Both the position numbers and the translations under genes were made by a program. This document shows, one piece after another, positions 22,943 to 27,172 of a DNA stretch of 64,000 bases. Where the stretch lies: positions 186,001 to 250,000 of the forward strand of contig JAIOOU010000004.1 of the NCBI GenBank assembly GCA_021414245.1, written 5' to 3'. The stretch comes from Chloroflexota bacterium (GTDB lineage: Bacteria; Chloroflexota; Anaerolineae; Anaerolineales; Villigracilaceae). The notes beneath the pieces were generated by a model. The model saw only the letters and a list, made by a program, of their open reading frames with translations, was not told the DNA's origin and did no database searches. Positions within the stretch are counted from its first letter, which is position 1. Each line of letters opens with the position of its first letter.

Positions 22943-23398
22943 ATGGAACAGGAGAAATCCACAAGGAAGGGCAATATTAAGTTTTGGGCCGTCGCTTTGT
23001 TGTTGGGGGCACTGGTCCTGTTTGTTGTCGGCGGGTACCCGCTGATTAAGCAGATCGCATTGGACGGGTTTGGACAGGAAGTGACCGGGACGGTCGTGGA
23101 GCTGGCTGGCGCGGACAGGATCCAGACCCCGATCGTACAATTTACAACCACGGATGGAAGGCAGTATACGTTTAAGTCCCATTACGGGAACAGGAATATC
23201 CGCTTCACGGCTGGGGAGCAGGTTCAAATGCGATATCTCCCCGCCGCCCCGCAGATCGCGGAGATCAACCTGCTGGGCCGCATGAATTATCCCTCCAACC
23301 TGGAAGCCGCCTGCATTGGTTCGCTCCTGCTCATGGGCGGACTGGTTTCATTGCGCAATAAACCCCTGACTCTGGATTTCAGCCGTCGAAAGAACTGA
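22943..23398 (+). CDS. DUF3592 membrane protein
   Basis: The 151-residue protein has two membrane spans (about residues 14-33 and 126-143) flanking an extracytoplasmic beta domain with the DUF3592 pattern VTGTVVEL...TPIVQFTTTDGRQYTF...GEQVQMRYLP. Function is unknown; the family is widespread in bacteria. ATG 22943 follows GGAGGCTGGAGA; the in-frame ATG at 22904 lies before this site. The gene is bracketed by two hairpins with the same core sequence, so it is a self-contained transcription unit. Confidence 0.82.
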   Translation: MEQEKSTRKGNIKFWAVALLLGALVLFVVGGYPLIKQIALDGFGQEVTGTVVELAGADRIQTPIVQFTTTDGRQYTFKSHYGNRNIRFTAGEQVQMRYLPAAPQIAEINLLGRMNYPSNLEAACIGSLLLMGGLVSLRNKPLTLDFSRRKN

Positions 23399-23411: not shown

Positions 23412-23444
23412 AAAAGAGCCAGTCTATAACGGACTGGCTCTTTT
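23412..23444 (+). terminator. Terminator after the DUF3592 gene
   Basis: AAAAGAGCCAGTCT, loop ATAAC, GGACTGGCTCTTTT: a 14-bp stem with one G-U pair and a T-tract. The core repeats the hairpin at 22874-22900. Confidence 0.8.
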
Positions 23445-23470: not shown

Positions 23471-23477
23471 CGTGATC

Positions 23478-24008
23478 ATGGAATTTGACCCTAAGATCCA
23501 TCATCGCCGTTCCATTCGCTTGCAGGGATATGACTATTCACAGGCAGGCGCGTATTTTGTGACCATTGTCGCCTGGCGACGTGAAATGTTGTTTGGGGAC
23601 ATTGTGGATGGTGAAATGGGGCTGAACGATTTTGGGAAAATTGTTTCCGAGAAATGGCGATGGTTGGAAACACAATATGAATATATTGAATTAGGTGCAT
23701 GGGTTGTCATGCCAAATCATTTTCATGGCATTTTGATAATCCATGATGTTGGCAGGGGCGGATCGCGATCCGCCCCTGCGCCTGCCAAACGAAAATCATT
23801 GGGCGGATTGATCGGTGCGTTCAAAACGGTTTCGACAAAACAAATCAATTTATTGCGTAATACCGAAGGACAGATTGTCTGGCAGCGGAATTATTATGAA
23901 CACATTATCCGCAACGAACGCGAAATGGGCAGGATCACCCGTTATATCGAAGTCAACCCATTGCGCTGGGCGGATGATGAAGAAAACTCGATGAATATAA
24001 AACCGTAG
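23478..24008 (+). CDS. REP-associated tyrosine transposase (RAYT, Y1_Tnp/TnpA_REP)
   Basis: Single-strand DNA nuclease of the HUH superfamily thought to mobilise REP-type palindromes. The 176-residue protein has the N-terminal RRSIRLQGYDYSQAGAYFVTIVAWRR strand, HUH motif H81-F-H83 in MPNHFHGI, and catalytic Tyr140 (or Tyr139) in WQRNYYEHIIRNE. It ends YIEVNPLRWADD, as usual for this family. Residues 92-101 are encoded by a 28-bp palindrome, and another copy follows the stop, so enzyme and probable substrate are together. The in-frame GTG at 23472 is an alternative start. The gene appears intact and is the only mobile-type protein in the window. Confidence 0.9.
   Translation: MEFDPKIHHRRSIRLQGYDYSQAGAYFVTIVAWRREMLFGDIVDGEMGLNDFGKIVSEKWRWLETQYEYIELGAWVVMPNHFHGILIIHDVGRGGSRSAPAPAKRKSLGGLIGAFKTVSTKQINLLRNTEGQIVWQRNYYEHIIRNEREMGRITRYIEVNPLRWADDEENSMNIKP
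23752..23779. repeat. 28-bp TCGCGA palindrome, copy A (inside RAYT gene)
   Basis: A perfect palindrome with left arm GCAGGGGCGGATCG and its exact complement to the right, centred on TCGCGA. It is translated in frame as RAYT residues 92-101, in the variable loop after the HUH motif. Same length and scheme as copies B (24014) and C (25847). Confidence 0.85.
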
Positions 24009-24013
24009 AGGCG

Positions 24014-24041
24014 GTAGGGGCAGGTCGCGACCTGCCCCTAC
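24014..24041. repeat. 28-bp TCGCGA palindrome, copy B (after RAYT gene)
   Basis: A perfect palindrome with left arm GTAGGGGCAGGTCG, 6 bp after the RAYT stop. Compared with copy A, the three variable arm positions differ on both sides in a compensating way. It could fold as a strong hairpin and also serve as terminator. Confidence 0.85.
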
Positions 24042-24100
24042 GTATGATGTTTACTCCCGCCCCGCATGAAGCGCAAATCCTTCAACGCCTTTCCATCAGT

Positions 24101-24106
24101 TATAAT
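24101..24106 (+). promoter_or_regulatory. -10 box of glyQS
   Basis: TATAAT 78 bp before the glyQS ATG. The remaining leader has only a weak TCCC/GGGA stem. I see no T-box (no specifier stem or conserved antiterminator sequence). Confidence 0.45.
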
Positions 24107-24184
24107 CTCCCCGCAATCACCCATTTAAAATCGTAAATCCCAAATCGGGAATACTGGCAGAAAGCGCAAGTACAGGTGTTATAA

Positions 24185-27172
24185 ATGACGAAACCCTCCT
24201 CCTTTCAAGAAATCATCCTCAAACTCCAGGACTTCTGGGCCTCGCACGGATGTCTGATCACCCAGCCTTACTACACCCAGGTGGGCGCAGGGACGATGAA
24301 TCCCAACACCTTCCTGCGTGTACTTGGTCCCGAGCCGTGGAACGTGGCCTATGTCGAGCCGTCTGTGCGCCCCGATGACGGGCGCTACGGCGAAAACCCC
24401 AACCGCTTCCAGCTGCACACCCAGTATCAGGTCATCCTCAAGCCCGACCCCGGCAACCCGCAGGAACTTTACCTCGAGTCGCTCAAAGCCCTCGGCATCG
24501 ATCCGCGCCAGCACGACATCCGTTTCGTGGAGGACAACTGGGAACAGCCCGCCATCTCCGCCTGGGGCCTGGGTTGGGAGGTCTGGCTCGACGGGCAGGA
24601 GATCACGCAGTTCACCTACTTCCAGCAGATGGGCGGCGTTGCGCTCGACCCTGTGTCTGTTGAAATTACCTACGGCCTCGAGCGCATTCTGATCGCGCTC
24701 AACAATGCCAAAGCCATTTGGGATGAGGAATGGGGCGCGGGTGTCAGCTATGGAGAGATCCGTCACCAGGAGGAATTCGAACACTCCAAATATTATTTTG
24801 AAGTGGCCGATGTCGAACGCGTCCGCGCCATGTACGACCTCTTCTCCGCCGAAGCCGACGCCTGTCTCGCACAAGGGTTGATCGTCCCGGCGCACGACTA
24901 CGTCCTCAAATGCTCGCATTGCTTCAATGTTTTAGATACGCGCGGCGCGATCAGTGTCGCCGAACGTCAGGCGTTCTTCCGCCGTATCCGCGAACTGGCC
25001 AAGGGTGTGGCAGTGGCGTATGGGGAGCAGCGCAAGGGTTTTGAGTATCCGTTGTTGAAAGAGACGGGTTCGAAGGTTACAAGTTCGAAAGTTTCAACGT
25101 TCAAACCTTCCAACTCGGGACCTTCCAAATTTATTTTGGAGATCGGTGTCGAAGAACTGCCCGCCTCTGATGTGGACACCGCCCGCGAACTTTTGACGAC
25201 CCGCATCCTGACTCTGCTCGATGAACTTCGTCTTGCCCACGGGGACGTGCGCATCTTTACGACCCCGCGCCGGATCGTCGTTTCCATTGACTCTCTCGCC
25301 CCGAATCAGCCGGATCGTGAAGACCTCGTCAAGGGTCCGCCCGCAGATAAGGCCTTCGACAAGGACGGCAAACCGACCCAGGCCGCGCTTGGCTTTGCGA
25401 AGAAGAATAATCTCGACCCTGCAGCACTCGAAGCCCGCGAGATCGACGGCGGAAAGTATGTCGCGGCGGTCGTCAAACAAAAGGGTCGTCCGACTCCCGA
25501 AGTGTTGGCCGAAGCATTGCCCAAATTAGTCGAGAGCATCAAGTTCGAAAAATCCATGCGTTGGAACCACTCCGGCGCTGCCTTCTCCCGTCCCATCCGC
25601 TGGTACGTGGCCCTGCTCGGTGACATGCTCATCCCGTTCGAATACGCCGGCGTTGCCTCGGGAAATATTTCCCGCGGACTGCGCCCCTACGGCTCGCCCG
25701 AGATCACCATCCCATCCGCCGATAAATATTTTGATGTGATTCGTGAAGCAGGCATCCTGCTCGATAAAGAAGAACGCAAAGCCTCCATCGTGGAGCAGGT
25801 CAACCAGGCTGCGGCCTTGATCGGCGGGGAAGCCATCATTGGCTATGTAGGGGCGACTCGCGAGTCACTCCTACTGGACGAGGTTGCCAACCTCATCGAA
25901 ATGCCGACGGCCGTGATGGGCGGTTTCAACGAGGAATTTCTGTCCCTGCCGCGCGATGTCTTGATCTCGGTCATGAAGAAACATCAGCGTTATTTTCCCG
26001 TGCAGAAAAACGGGAAATTGCTGGCGCATTTTATAGCCATTCGCAATGGCGATGACATCGGCATTGACACGGTCCGCGAGGGAAATGAACATGTGCTCGG
26101 CGCGCGTTTCGCGGATGCCAATTTCTTTGTGAGGGAGGATGTAAAGAATCCCCTCGAGTATTACCGCGCCCAGCTTTCCGGCCTCACCTTCCACACCAAA
26201 CTGGGTTCGATGCTGGATAAGTCCACGCGCATTGAGAATCTGGTCAATGAATTGATCCCCATGCTTGCGCTTGAAAAAGACGAGGCTGTCTTTGCCCGCC
26301 GCGCCGCGCATTTAATGAAGGCCGATCTGGCGACCCAGATGGTCACCGAAATGACCTCCCTGCAGGGTATCATCGGCGGCGAATACGCCCTGCGCTCCGA
26401 AGAACATAAGGATGTTGCCGCCGCGATCAGCGAACAATATCAAACCGTTCCGCAAACCAAGGCCGGCCTTGCGATTGCCCTTGCCGACCGGTTGGATTCA
26501 CTGGTTGGTTTGTTTGCAGCCGGGCTGGTGCCCACCGGCGCGAAGGACCCCTTCGGTCTGCGCCGTGCCGCCATCGGCGTGGTCCAGCCGTTGATCGAGC
26601 AGGATGTTGACTTTGACATCGCCGAAGCCGTGAAGAAATCCGCCGGAACCCAGCCGATCGGAGTCAAGGACGATGTACAAAAGCAGATTCTGGAATTCAT
26701 CACGGGCCGCTTGAAGGTTGTGCTGGGCGATCTCGGCTACAAGTACGACGTTGTCGATGCCATTCTTGCGGCGCAGTCCAATAACCCGGCGGGAACCGTC
26801 CGGGCGGTGAAGCAGTTGTCGGCCTGGGTCGGACGCGAAGACTGGTCCACGACTCTGGACGGTTTCGCGCGCTGTGTCCGCATCACCCGCGATCAGAAGC
26901 AAGATTTCAAGGTCAACGAGAAGTTATTTGCGGACAAGGAAGAAAAAGACCTGTTCGCCGCACTCCAGAAATCTGCAAAGACCCAGCCTGGCAGCGTGGA
27001 TGAATTTCTGGAGATCGTCGTCAAACTCATTCCGGCCATTACCGCCTTCTTTGACAAGGTGCTGGTCATGGCAGAGGACAAGGCCGTGAAGGAAAACCGG
27101 CTTGGCCTGCTGCAAAAGATCGCTGCACTCTCCAACGGAATTGCGGATTTGAGCAAACTTGAAGGGTTCTAA
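24185..27172 (+). CDS. glyQS: Fused glycyl-tRNA synthetase (alpha and beta chains in one protein)
   Basis: Charges tRNA-Gly with glycine. Residues 1-293 match the alpha subunit GlyQ ([24 protein letters not shown]..., [17 protein letters not shown]). Residues about 316-995 match the beta subunit GlyS ([43 protein letters not shown]-like [44 protein letters not shown]) with the C-terminal DALR-type anticodon domain. In most bacteria these are two genes; fusions are known. The linker 294-315 is Ser/Lys/Thr-rich and encoded by short imperfect repeats. Residues 555-564 come from a 28-bp palindrome that interrupts the normally conserved GGEAII...[10 protein letters not shown] segment. ATG 24185 follows AGGTG. 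Confidence 0.95.
25847..25874. repeat. 28-bp TCGCGA palindrome, copy C (inside glyQS)
   Basis: Left arm GTAGGGGCGACTCG; the right arm is its complement apart from two transitions. It lies within the beta-subunit part of glyQS and is translated without a frameshift (about VGATRESLL). The mismatches fit an older copy that has begun to drift under coding constraint. Confidence 0.8.

Follow-up and report, generated by a model that had tools for sequence, protein, structure and literature searches.

The locus and its palindromes

We analysed a 64,000-nucleotide stretch of the genome of a Chloroflexota bacterium (contig JAIOOU010000004.1, forward strand; in the following, the window), which contains a gene for a REP-associated tyrosine transposase (RAYT) and three copies of a short palindrome of the type known as repetitive extragenic palindromes (REPs). 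The genome comprises 3.87 Mb in 17 contigs. The features concerned are:

23472-24008, + strand: RAYT (TnpAREP-like Y1 HUH nuclease) gene, by profile, motifs and predicted fold
23752-23779, no strand assigned: copy 1, perfect 28-bp double-foot palindrome, foot GCAG/CTGC, core GGATCGCGATCC
24014-24041, no strand assigned: copy 2, perfect 28-bp double-foot palindrome, foot GTAG/CTAC, core AGGTCGCGACCT
24185-27172, + strand: glyS, glycyl-tRNA synthetase, alpha and beta parts in one open reading frame (ORF), PF02091 and PF02092
25847-25874, no strand assigned: copy 3, imperfect 28-bp palindrome, core GACTCGCGAGTC, in frame within glyS

Based on its profile match, motifs and modelled fold, the ORF at 23472-24008 is classified as a RAYT/TnpAREP-type nuclease, with its activity predicted. 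It may start at GTG 23472 or ATG 23478 and matched the RAYT profile NF047646 with an E-value of 1.9e-19 (70 bits, under the cut-off of 80 bits); no Pfam family name was obtained at E 0.001. The protein contains the motifs NHFH (HUH), WQ and YIEVNP (Y motif). An AlphaFold model built with 30 sequences had a predicted local distance difference test score (pLDDT) of 86.2, and its best Foldseek match was 4er8, the structure of a TnpAREP in complex with a REP hairpin (E 2.1e-7, template modelling scores 0.55/0.58). The family matches of glyS were PF02091 (E 4.4e-132) and PF02092 (E 1.9e-185).

The three 28-bp palindromes with a TCGCGA centre, reported in a preliminary description of this DNA, were all recovered at their positions. 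A search for AGGGGCNNNTCGCGANNNGCCCCT with up to three mismatches gave exactly three places in the 64 kb, which are the three copies, whereas 100 dinucleotide shuffles gave a mean of 0.06 matches, a maximum of 1 and never three. Copy 1 lies in frame within the RAYT gene (residues 92-101, numbered from ATG 23478) and encodes the loop joining the HUH strand to the following helix, around residues 94-98, the only run of at least three residues with a pLDDT below 50 in the model. Copy 2 starts 5 nt past the RAYT stop codon. This placement, one copy within and one adjoining the gene, was as described before; the host gene of the third copy, glyS, had gone unmentioned. Also as described, the arms differ at pairs 9-11 (GGA/TCC, AGG/CCT and GAC/GTC in copies 1, 2 and 3), and all these differences are compensated. 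Two pairs of copy 3 are imperfect, pair 6 (G.T) and pair 8 (C.A). GTAG is present in copies 2 and 3, and GCAG in copy 1. Folded as single-stranded DNA, copies 1 and 2 each formed a hairpin of 12 pairs with CGCG at its tip (-15.4 kcal/mol, z -4.9, and -13.5 kcal/mol, z -7.0, respectively), and copy 3 gave a weak hairpin (-4.7 kcal/mol, z -1.3).

Distribution in the genome and in related genomes

In the genome holding the window, the outer arms with up to three mismatches were found at 15 places per strand, versus 53 for a backwards control. Since the control exceeds the real arms, mismatch counts alone carry little weight, and the outer-arm count was rejected as a misleading copy number and replaced by a palindromic-core criterion. 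By this criterion 8 of the 15 places are copies; one 27-bp copy, with a core (GGGGTGACCCC) unlike the TCGCGA copies, brings the number to about nine. The preliminary description had named a lack of further copies in the genome as a reason to abandon its proposal, and further copies thus exist. Besides those in the RAYT gene and glyS, in-frame copies were found in two ORFs, one metG-like and the other a glyA-gcvT-like fusion (both labelled from reading the proteins alone), and the copy behind the RAYT gene and four more lie between ORFs or at ORF ends. At two loci the foot of the palindrome seems to give the upstream ORF its stop (GTAA, GTAG), namely L198:2001-2028 and L202 near 2001, which correspond to C5:65893 and C7:35280 in the own genome.

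The pattern GTAGGGGCN{4,24}GCCCCTAC occurred in 122 of 150 genomes of the Anaerolineales family, with up to 62 copies. Among the matches listed, 77 sites picked by their outer 8+8 letters alone measured 26-32 bp, and 71 of the 77 were 27-29 bp long. A length of exactly 28 bp, as put forward earlier, is therefore seen in the TCGCGA copies and was rejected as a rule for the wider family. The core pairs of these sites (up to five per site) were Watson-Crick in 91.1%, versus 51.1% (maximum 59.5%) when right arms were exchanged among sites of equal length; these shuffles, like those for the in-gene cores and the tree below, treat related rows as independent. There were 38 distinct five-letter cores, and every scored pair was Watson-Crick in 53 of the 77 sites. 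Because the sites were picked by their outer letters only, the covariation is no artefact of site choice.

It is extremely improbable that the palindromes arose by chance or represent an ordinary transcription terminator. The position of copy 2 directly past a stop codon would suit a terminator, but this copy has no following T run and two of the three copies lie within ORFs; for chance, the three copies observed compare with 0.06 expected. The occurrence of the same arms in 122 of the 150 genomes speaks against both, and the copy counts across genomes refute them.

Genomes with an own-class RAYT (E<=1e-20) numbered 74 of the 150, and the other 76 served as comparison. The median number of copies per genome was 7.5 with and 1.5 without such a RAYT (p 8.5e-9), and the excess was not reached in any of 5000 within-genus permutations (0/5000), in agreement with the earlier view of the palindromes as RAYT-associated hairpins. 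The TCGCGA class was present in all five genomes with a RAYT close to that of the window (3, 3, 12, 4 and 1 copies) versus 32 of 145 others; with the in-gene copies subtracted, the five genomes retained 2, 2, 11, 3 and 0 copies (p 3.5e-4). The GGTTCG core was found in 1 of the 150 genomes.

Palindromes in the linker of RAYT genes

We examined 130 RAYT loci, of which 106 were usable and 24 were dropped because the motif was not found or the gene was broken. With a stem score of at least 11 as criterion, a palindrome was present in the linker between HUH and WQ in 51 of the 106, and elsewhere in the ORF, a stretch twice as long as the linker, in 6. Twenty codon shuffles of the linkers gave 0-1 palindromes versus the 51 real ones. 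A second set from named records (80 loci, 68 usable, 12 dropped for the same reasons) gave 43 of 68 in the linker and 7 elsewhere; four of these 68 genes repeat the first set (L211, L213, L242, L252), which leaves 41 of 64. No palindrome was found in the interval between HUH and Y in any of 16 usable RAYTs of other classes from the same family (20 taken, 4 dropped for the same reasons). The palindromes of such other-class RAYTs (L283-L287, L296, L300 and others) lie beside the gene and are different ones, such as AGGTCACGCTTCAAGCGTGACCT.

In the 37 parsable in-gene cases, the GTAG was in codon phase 0 in 24 and in phase 1 in 13, and never in phase 2, which would place TAG in frame. Translation thus reads the insert in two different phases, so that it does not encode one conserved peptide. 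A core could be parsed in 46 of the 51 linker palindromes and not in the other 5. In 7 of 13 cases, versus 1.55 expected (0/5000), another copy at the locus had the in-gene core, and RAYT similarity correlated with core similarity (Mantel r 0.327, 0/5000). On a FastTree phylogeny of 170 RAYTs with the linker left out, the TCGCGA core changes twice, versus at least 10 times in 200 shuffles, and the presence of the palindrome changes at least 29 times, versus at least 48 times. Flanking copies beside the RAYT gene were found in 12 of 44 loci with an in-gene copy and in 3 of 62 without (p 0.0015). The clade of the window RAYT contains five RAYTs that are 82% identical; at pair 11, GGA and GGG occur and L040 is an unpaired intermediate, and the foot GCAG/CTGC of the window copy is a two-sided change within the clade.

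The palindromes as probable substrates of the RAYT

From these results we consider that the palindromes are very probably double-foot REPs and, as single-stranded hairpins, the predicted substrate of the RAYT encoded at 23472-24008 and of related RAYTs. This reading is directly supported by their anatomy, their association with own-class RAYTs, the covariation, the core type that follows the RAYT tree and the conservation of the in-gene copy at the DNA level described below; we infer binding, cleavage and mobility for this RAYT and palindrome. In the proposed mechanism, the single-stranded 28-mer would form the 12-pair hairpin with the CGCG tip, and the RAYT would recognise the fixed foot (GTAGGGGC) and the clade-specific tip (TCGCGA). 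It would then cleave and transfer strands, by which copies would spread, and the middle pairs would be free to change provided that pairing holds. Either strand could serve as substrate, because both begin with GTAG. One copy sits in frame within the part of the gene that encodes a flexible loop, a second directly past the gene, and the third is the insertion in glyS that relatives share.

Several results weigh against this reading. The own genome has only about nine copies, and about half of the in-class RAYTs lack a linker palindrome. At least five copies occurred in 17 of the 76 genomes without an own-class RAYT. The preliminary description had considered equal abundance in genomes lacking the RAYT as evidence against its proposal, and here the outcome was mixed: the palindromes were rarer overall, with a median of 1 copy in 17 genomes without a RAYT by either search, but four of these 17 were rich in copies (G118 14, G094 11, G125 10, G045 6), among them G094 and G045 with a completeness of 95% and 98%, respectively. 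Eight host genomes were chosen because their RAYTs have other cores, and TCGCGA places were found in 3 of them as well (8, 2 and 2, the 8 in G172), and FastTree placed the window clade apart from the GGTTCG clade. Finally, the Y motif of the window RAYT, YIEVNP, differs from the YIxNNP of TnpAREP subclass 2.4, the published class with which it is compared below.

Conservation of the in-gene hairpin

Eight RAYTs carry, in a single phase, an identical in-gene 28-mer, GTAGGGGCGGTTCGCGAACCGCCCCTAC. Their labels span six phyla: three are labelled Nitrospirota, and one each Chloroflexota, Calditrichota, Cyanobacteriota, Planctomycetota and Thermodesulfobacteriota. These labels were taken from the titles of the records, most of which are metagenome bins and may contain wrongly binned contigs. 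Outside the 28-mer, the protein identity of the eight was 57% (0.50-0.68) and fourfold sites agreed in 284 of 881 cases (32%). The identity of the 28-mer is partly chosen, since the choice of the eight required the TCGCGA core and conserved arms; pairs 10-11 were not constrained. In the leaf order of the tree the eight are adjacent, with no hairpin-less row in between. TCGCGA-class places (up to one mismatch) numbered 56 in G169, 17 in G168 and 10 in G167 among the hosts; in G165 and G166 the in-gene copy was the only such place, and in G176 it was the only strict palindrome of the genome.

As linker palindromes are frequent and the 28-mer is identical despite diverged genes, the gene may carry its own substrate, and the RAYT gene appears to hold its cognate hairpin under conservation at the DNA level. 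A further step would be a one-gene REPtron, in which the RAYT coding sequence contains the cognate hairpin and preserves it at the DNA level; enzyme and substrate would then travel together in horizontal transfer and could seed new REP populations in genomes without REPs. We propose this tentatively, as a possibility that may well prove wrong, because the 28-mer is identical where only 32% of the fourfold sites are, because the core type is tied to the RAYT tree, and because G165, G166 and G176 hold the in-gene copy as the sole one of its core.

Alternatively, the in-gene copy may be a hitchhiker: REPs would land near the RAYT gene and a tolerant loop would refill repeatedly without benefit, with fresh copying keeping the palindrome perfect. 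We give this explanation nearly, though not quite, an even chance. It agrees with the position of copy 1 in the only RAYT stretch with a pLDDT below 50, with phases 0 (24) and 1 (13) to the exclusion of the TAG-in-frame phase, and with the other in-frame copies in glyS and in the metG-like and glyA-gcvT-like ORFs. The close RAYTs L091 and L053 carry wholly different cores within the same outer arms, and the tree calls for 29 or more changes in the presence of the palindrome; both points also favour it. However, this presence is more clumped than in the shuffled trees (at least 48 changes), and the eight RAYTs with six phylum labels, which agree at 32% of fourfold sites yet share the 28-mer and its phase, count against it. 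In G165, G166 and G176, moreover, no other copy could have refreshed the in-gene hairpin, because it is the only one with its core.

The hairpin could also act in the RAYT mRNA as a self-control element, by attenuation or a translation block. It is a strong hairpin inside the gene (as folded in DNA form), and in E. coli an action of REPs at the mRNA level is possible (work cited in PMC6006769). Nevertheless, we find such a role unlikely. The mismatches in 98 in-gene palindromes were 5 G.U, 7 A.C and 2 others among 1179 cells; as G.U is not in excess on the sense strand, there is no sign of selection on the mRNA strand in these few events, and the same hairpins also occur in glyS and between genes.

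For the relation of RAYTs and REPs, the question is how the two remain matched when RAYT genes are transferred or lost. A substrate that lies within the gene of its enzyme and is identical across distant relatives makes this matching directly testable, and RAYTs with a readable internal substrate would provide a specificity table of protein sequence versus hairpin tip.

The copy in glyS and the origin of compensated changes

For glyS, 31 genomes were searched, 26 had a match and 26 rows were aligned. An insert at one site was present in five rows (G000, G104, G116, G146 and G147), absent in 20 and cut off in one, with a net gain of 7 codons. As judged from the alignment, copy 3 is thus an insertion in glyS that is common to relatives. 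The cores of the five copies are set apart by two-sided exchanges of C-G and G-C at pairs 11 and 13 as well as at the tip, and their outer 3' arm has drifted. The core of copy 3 (GACTCGCGAGTC, GACTC) was found in none of the 46 parsed in-gene RAYT cores and is common in G146, G118 and G104. The three window copies were considered as one freely covarying family, and this was rejected, the core of copy 3 being of another type.

If the glyS copies descend from a single insertion, pairing would have been regained within a housekeeping gene, so that selection by the RAYT would be an unlikely cause and template switching or exchange between REPs would be the more natural one; independent insertions at the one site may be the alternative. 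To judge by the aligned glyS copies, selection by the RAYT is therefore not the sole possible cause of compensated changes. In the preliminary description, covariation had been taken to mean that pairing is kept as expected for a nuclease substrate. Pairing is indeed kept while the letters change, but the conclusion on the substrate was too strong, because compensated differences also occur among the glyS copies.

Compensated differences in general might originate in mutation: a template switch from one arm to the other, or an exchange involving another REP, would convert a perfect palindrome to a different one. This is possible, although we lean towards doubting it. In addition to the swaps at pairs 11 and 13 in the five glyS copies, the core differences among RAYTs that are at least 70% identical (46 pairs) argue for it, as they were two-sided in 55 cells and one-sided in 4; one-sided states are, however, undercounted in this comparison, since palindrome-less rows were not collected and the row pairs share sequences. 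Against it stand the unpaired intermediate in L040 and the possible independent insertions in glyS, and it leaves unexplained why the tip follows the RAYT clade. The glyS copies caution that compensated differences in small palindromes need not signal selection on a hairpin.

Rickettsia palindromic elements (RPEs) are palindromic repeats within protein genes. The glyS copy is like them in being a palindromic repeat inside a protein gene. The RPEs of R. conorii are tagged with CGTC, and CGTC repeats have no dedicated transposase, according to the parts considered here of Di Nocera et al. 2013 (PMC3733652).

Relation to described REPs and RAYTs

The 28-bp class had been thought to be possibly new. 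This is not supported, as the palindromes are of an already reported type: the parts of Quentin et al. 2018 (PMC6006769) considered here describe both double-foot REPs and REPs inside RAYT genes. TnpAREP subclass 2.4 (RAYT group 4) has double-foot REPs of the form GT[AG]G...C[TC]AC, REPs that sit within the RAYT gene, between HUH and Y, with the frame intact, a variable region past the HUH strand and the printed Y motif YIxNNP. The window RAYT shares with it the motifs NH[IFV]H (as NHFH) and WQ, the double-foot REPs near the gene, the in-frame REP between HUH and Y and the variable region. It differs in its Y motif, for which several of its relatives have YIESNP or YIEANP. Because YIEVNP departs from YIxNNP, we term the window RAYT 2.4-like and not a member of subclass 2.4.

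GTAG REPs, as far as described in the parts of PMC3733652 considered here, are palindromes of 20-40 bp with complementary stem variants near RAYT genes; they also occur inside genes, comprise 24 families and were reported in Chloroflexi among other phyla. The window palindromes fit in size (20-40 bp) and GTAG end (copies 2 and 3; copy 1 has GCAG), stem covariation, vicinity to a RAYT and occurrence in genes. However, the GTAG of those REPs is an unpaired tag at one end, whereas in the window GTAG pairs with CTAC (in copy 1, GCAG with CTGC).

Cleavage of the enzyme's own REP hairpin is reported for the TnpAREPs of E. coli, S. maltophilia and Marinomonas (Corneloup et al. 2021, PMC8266576, in the parts considered here). 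Mismatches in the S. maltophilia REP stem reduce or almost abolish cleavage, which depends on the foot, on the loop or unpaired bases and on pairing in the stem, and enzyme and REP co-evolve. A hairpin substrate with a GTAG foot is common to those pairs and the window. They belong to RAYT groups 2 and 3, with no in-gene REP described in the parts of that paper covered, whereas the window RAYT is 2.4-like.

Our literature search gave no title or abstract beyond PMC6006769 on REPs inside RAYT genes. In the passages of these papers and the titles and abstracts covered, the cross-phylum conservation at the DNA level, the two-phase rule and the match between in-gene core and RAYT clade were not found. 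What is added here is that a palindrome fills the linker between HUH and WQ in 51 of 106 usable RAYTs of the family and in 43 of 68 from named genomes, as compared to 0 of 16 of other classes, and that the in-gene 28-mer is identical in eight RAYTs with diverged genes.

Further observations

An inverted repeat (AAAAGAGCCAGTC / GACTGGCTCTTTT) at 23412-23444 of the window, between the RAYT gene and an ORF ending at 23398, is terminator-like. Strict GTAGGGGC...GCCCCTAC copies reached 214 in about 2.0 Mb in G168 (the host of L210) and 173 in about 1.5 Mb in G172 (the host of L216); both genomes have planctomycete titles, and their counts were far above those of the other 14 genomes searched.

A second type of palindrome, with GAATTC, AAATTT or a similar centre, was seen in the same RAYT linker in L054, L048, L071 and L075, and in L054 (1744-1769) it abuts the GTAG palindrome at 1716-1743. 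In a divergent group of RAYTs, palindromes of the form GTAGAGAC...GTCTCTAC replace GTAGGGGC; they lie in the linker in L155, L158, L159 and L161, and behind the gene in L162. In L053, L077, L114, L091, L101 and L159 the in-gene palindromes reach up to 7-8 bp past the GTAG foot and run into the neighbouring coding sequence, for example as CAATCCGTAG...CTACGGATTG.

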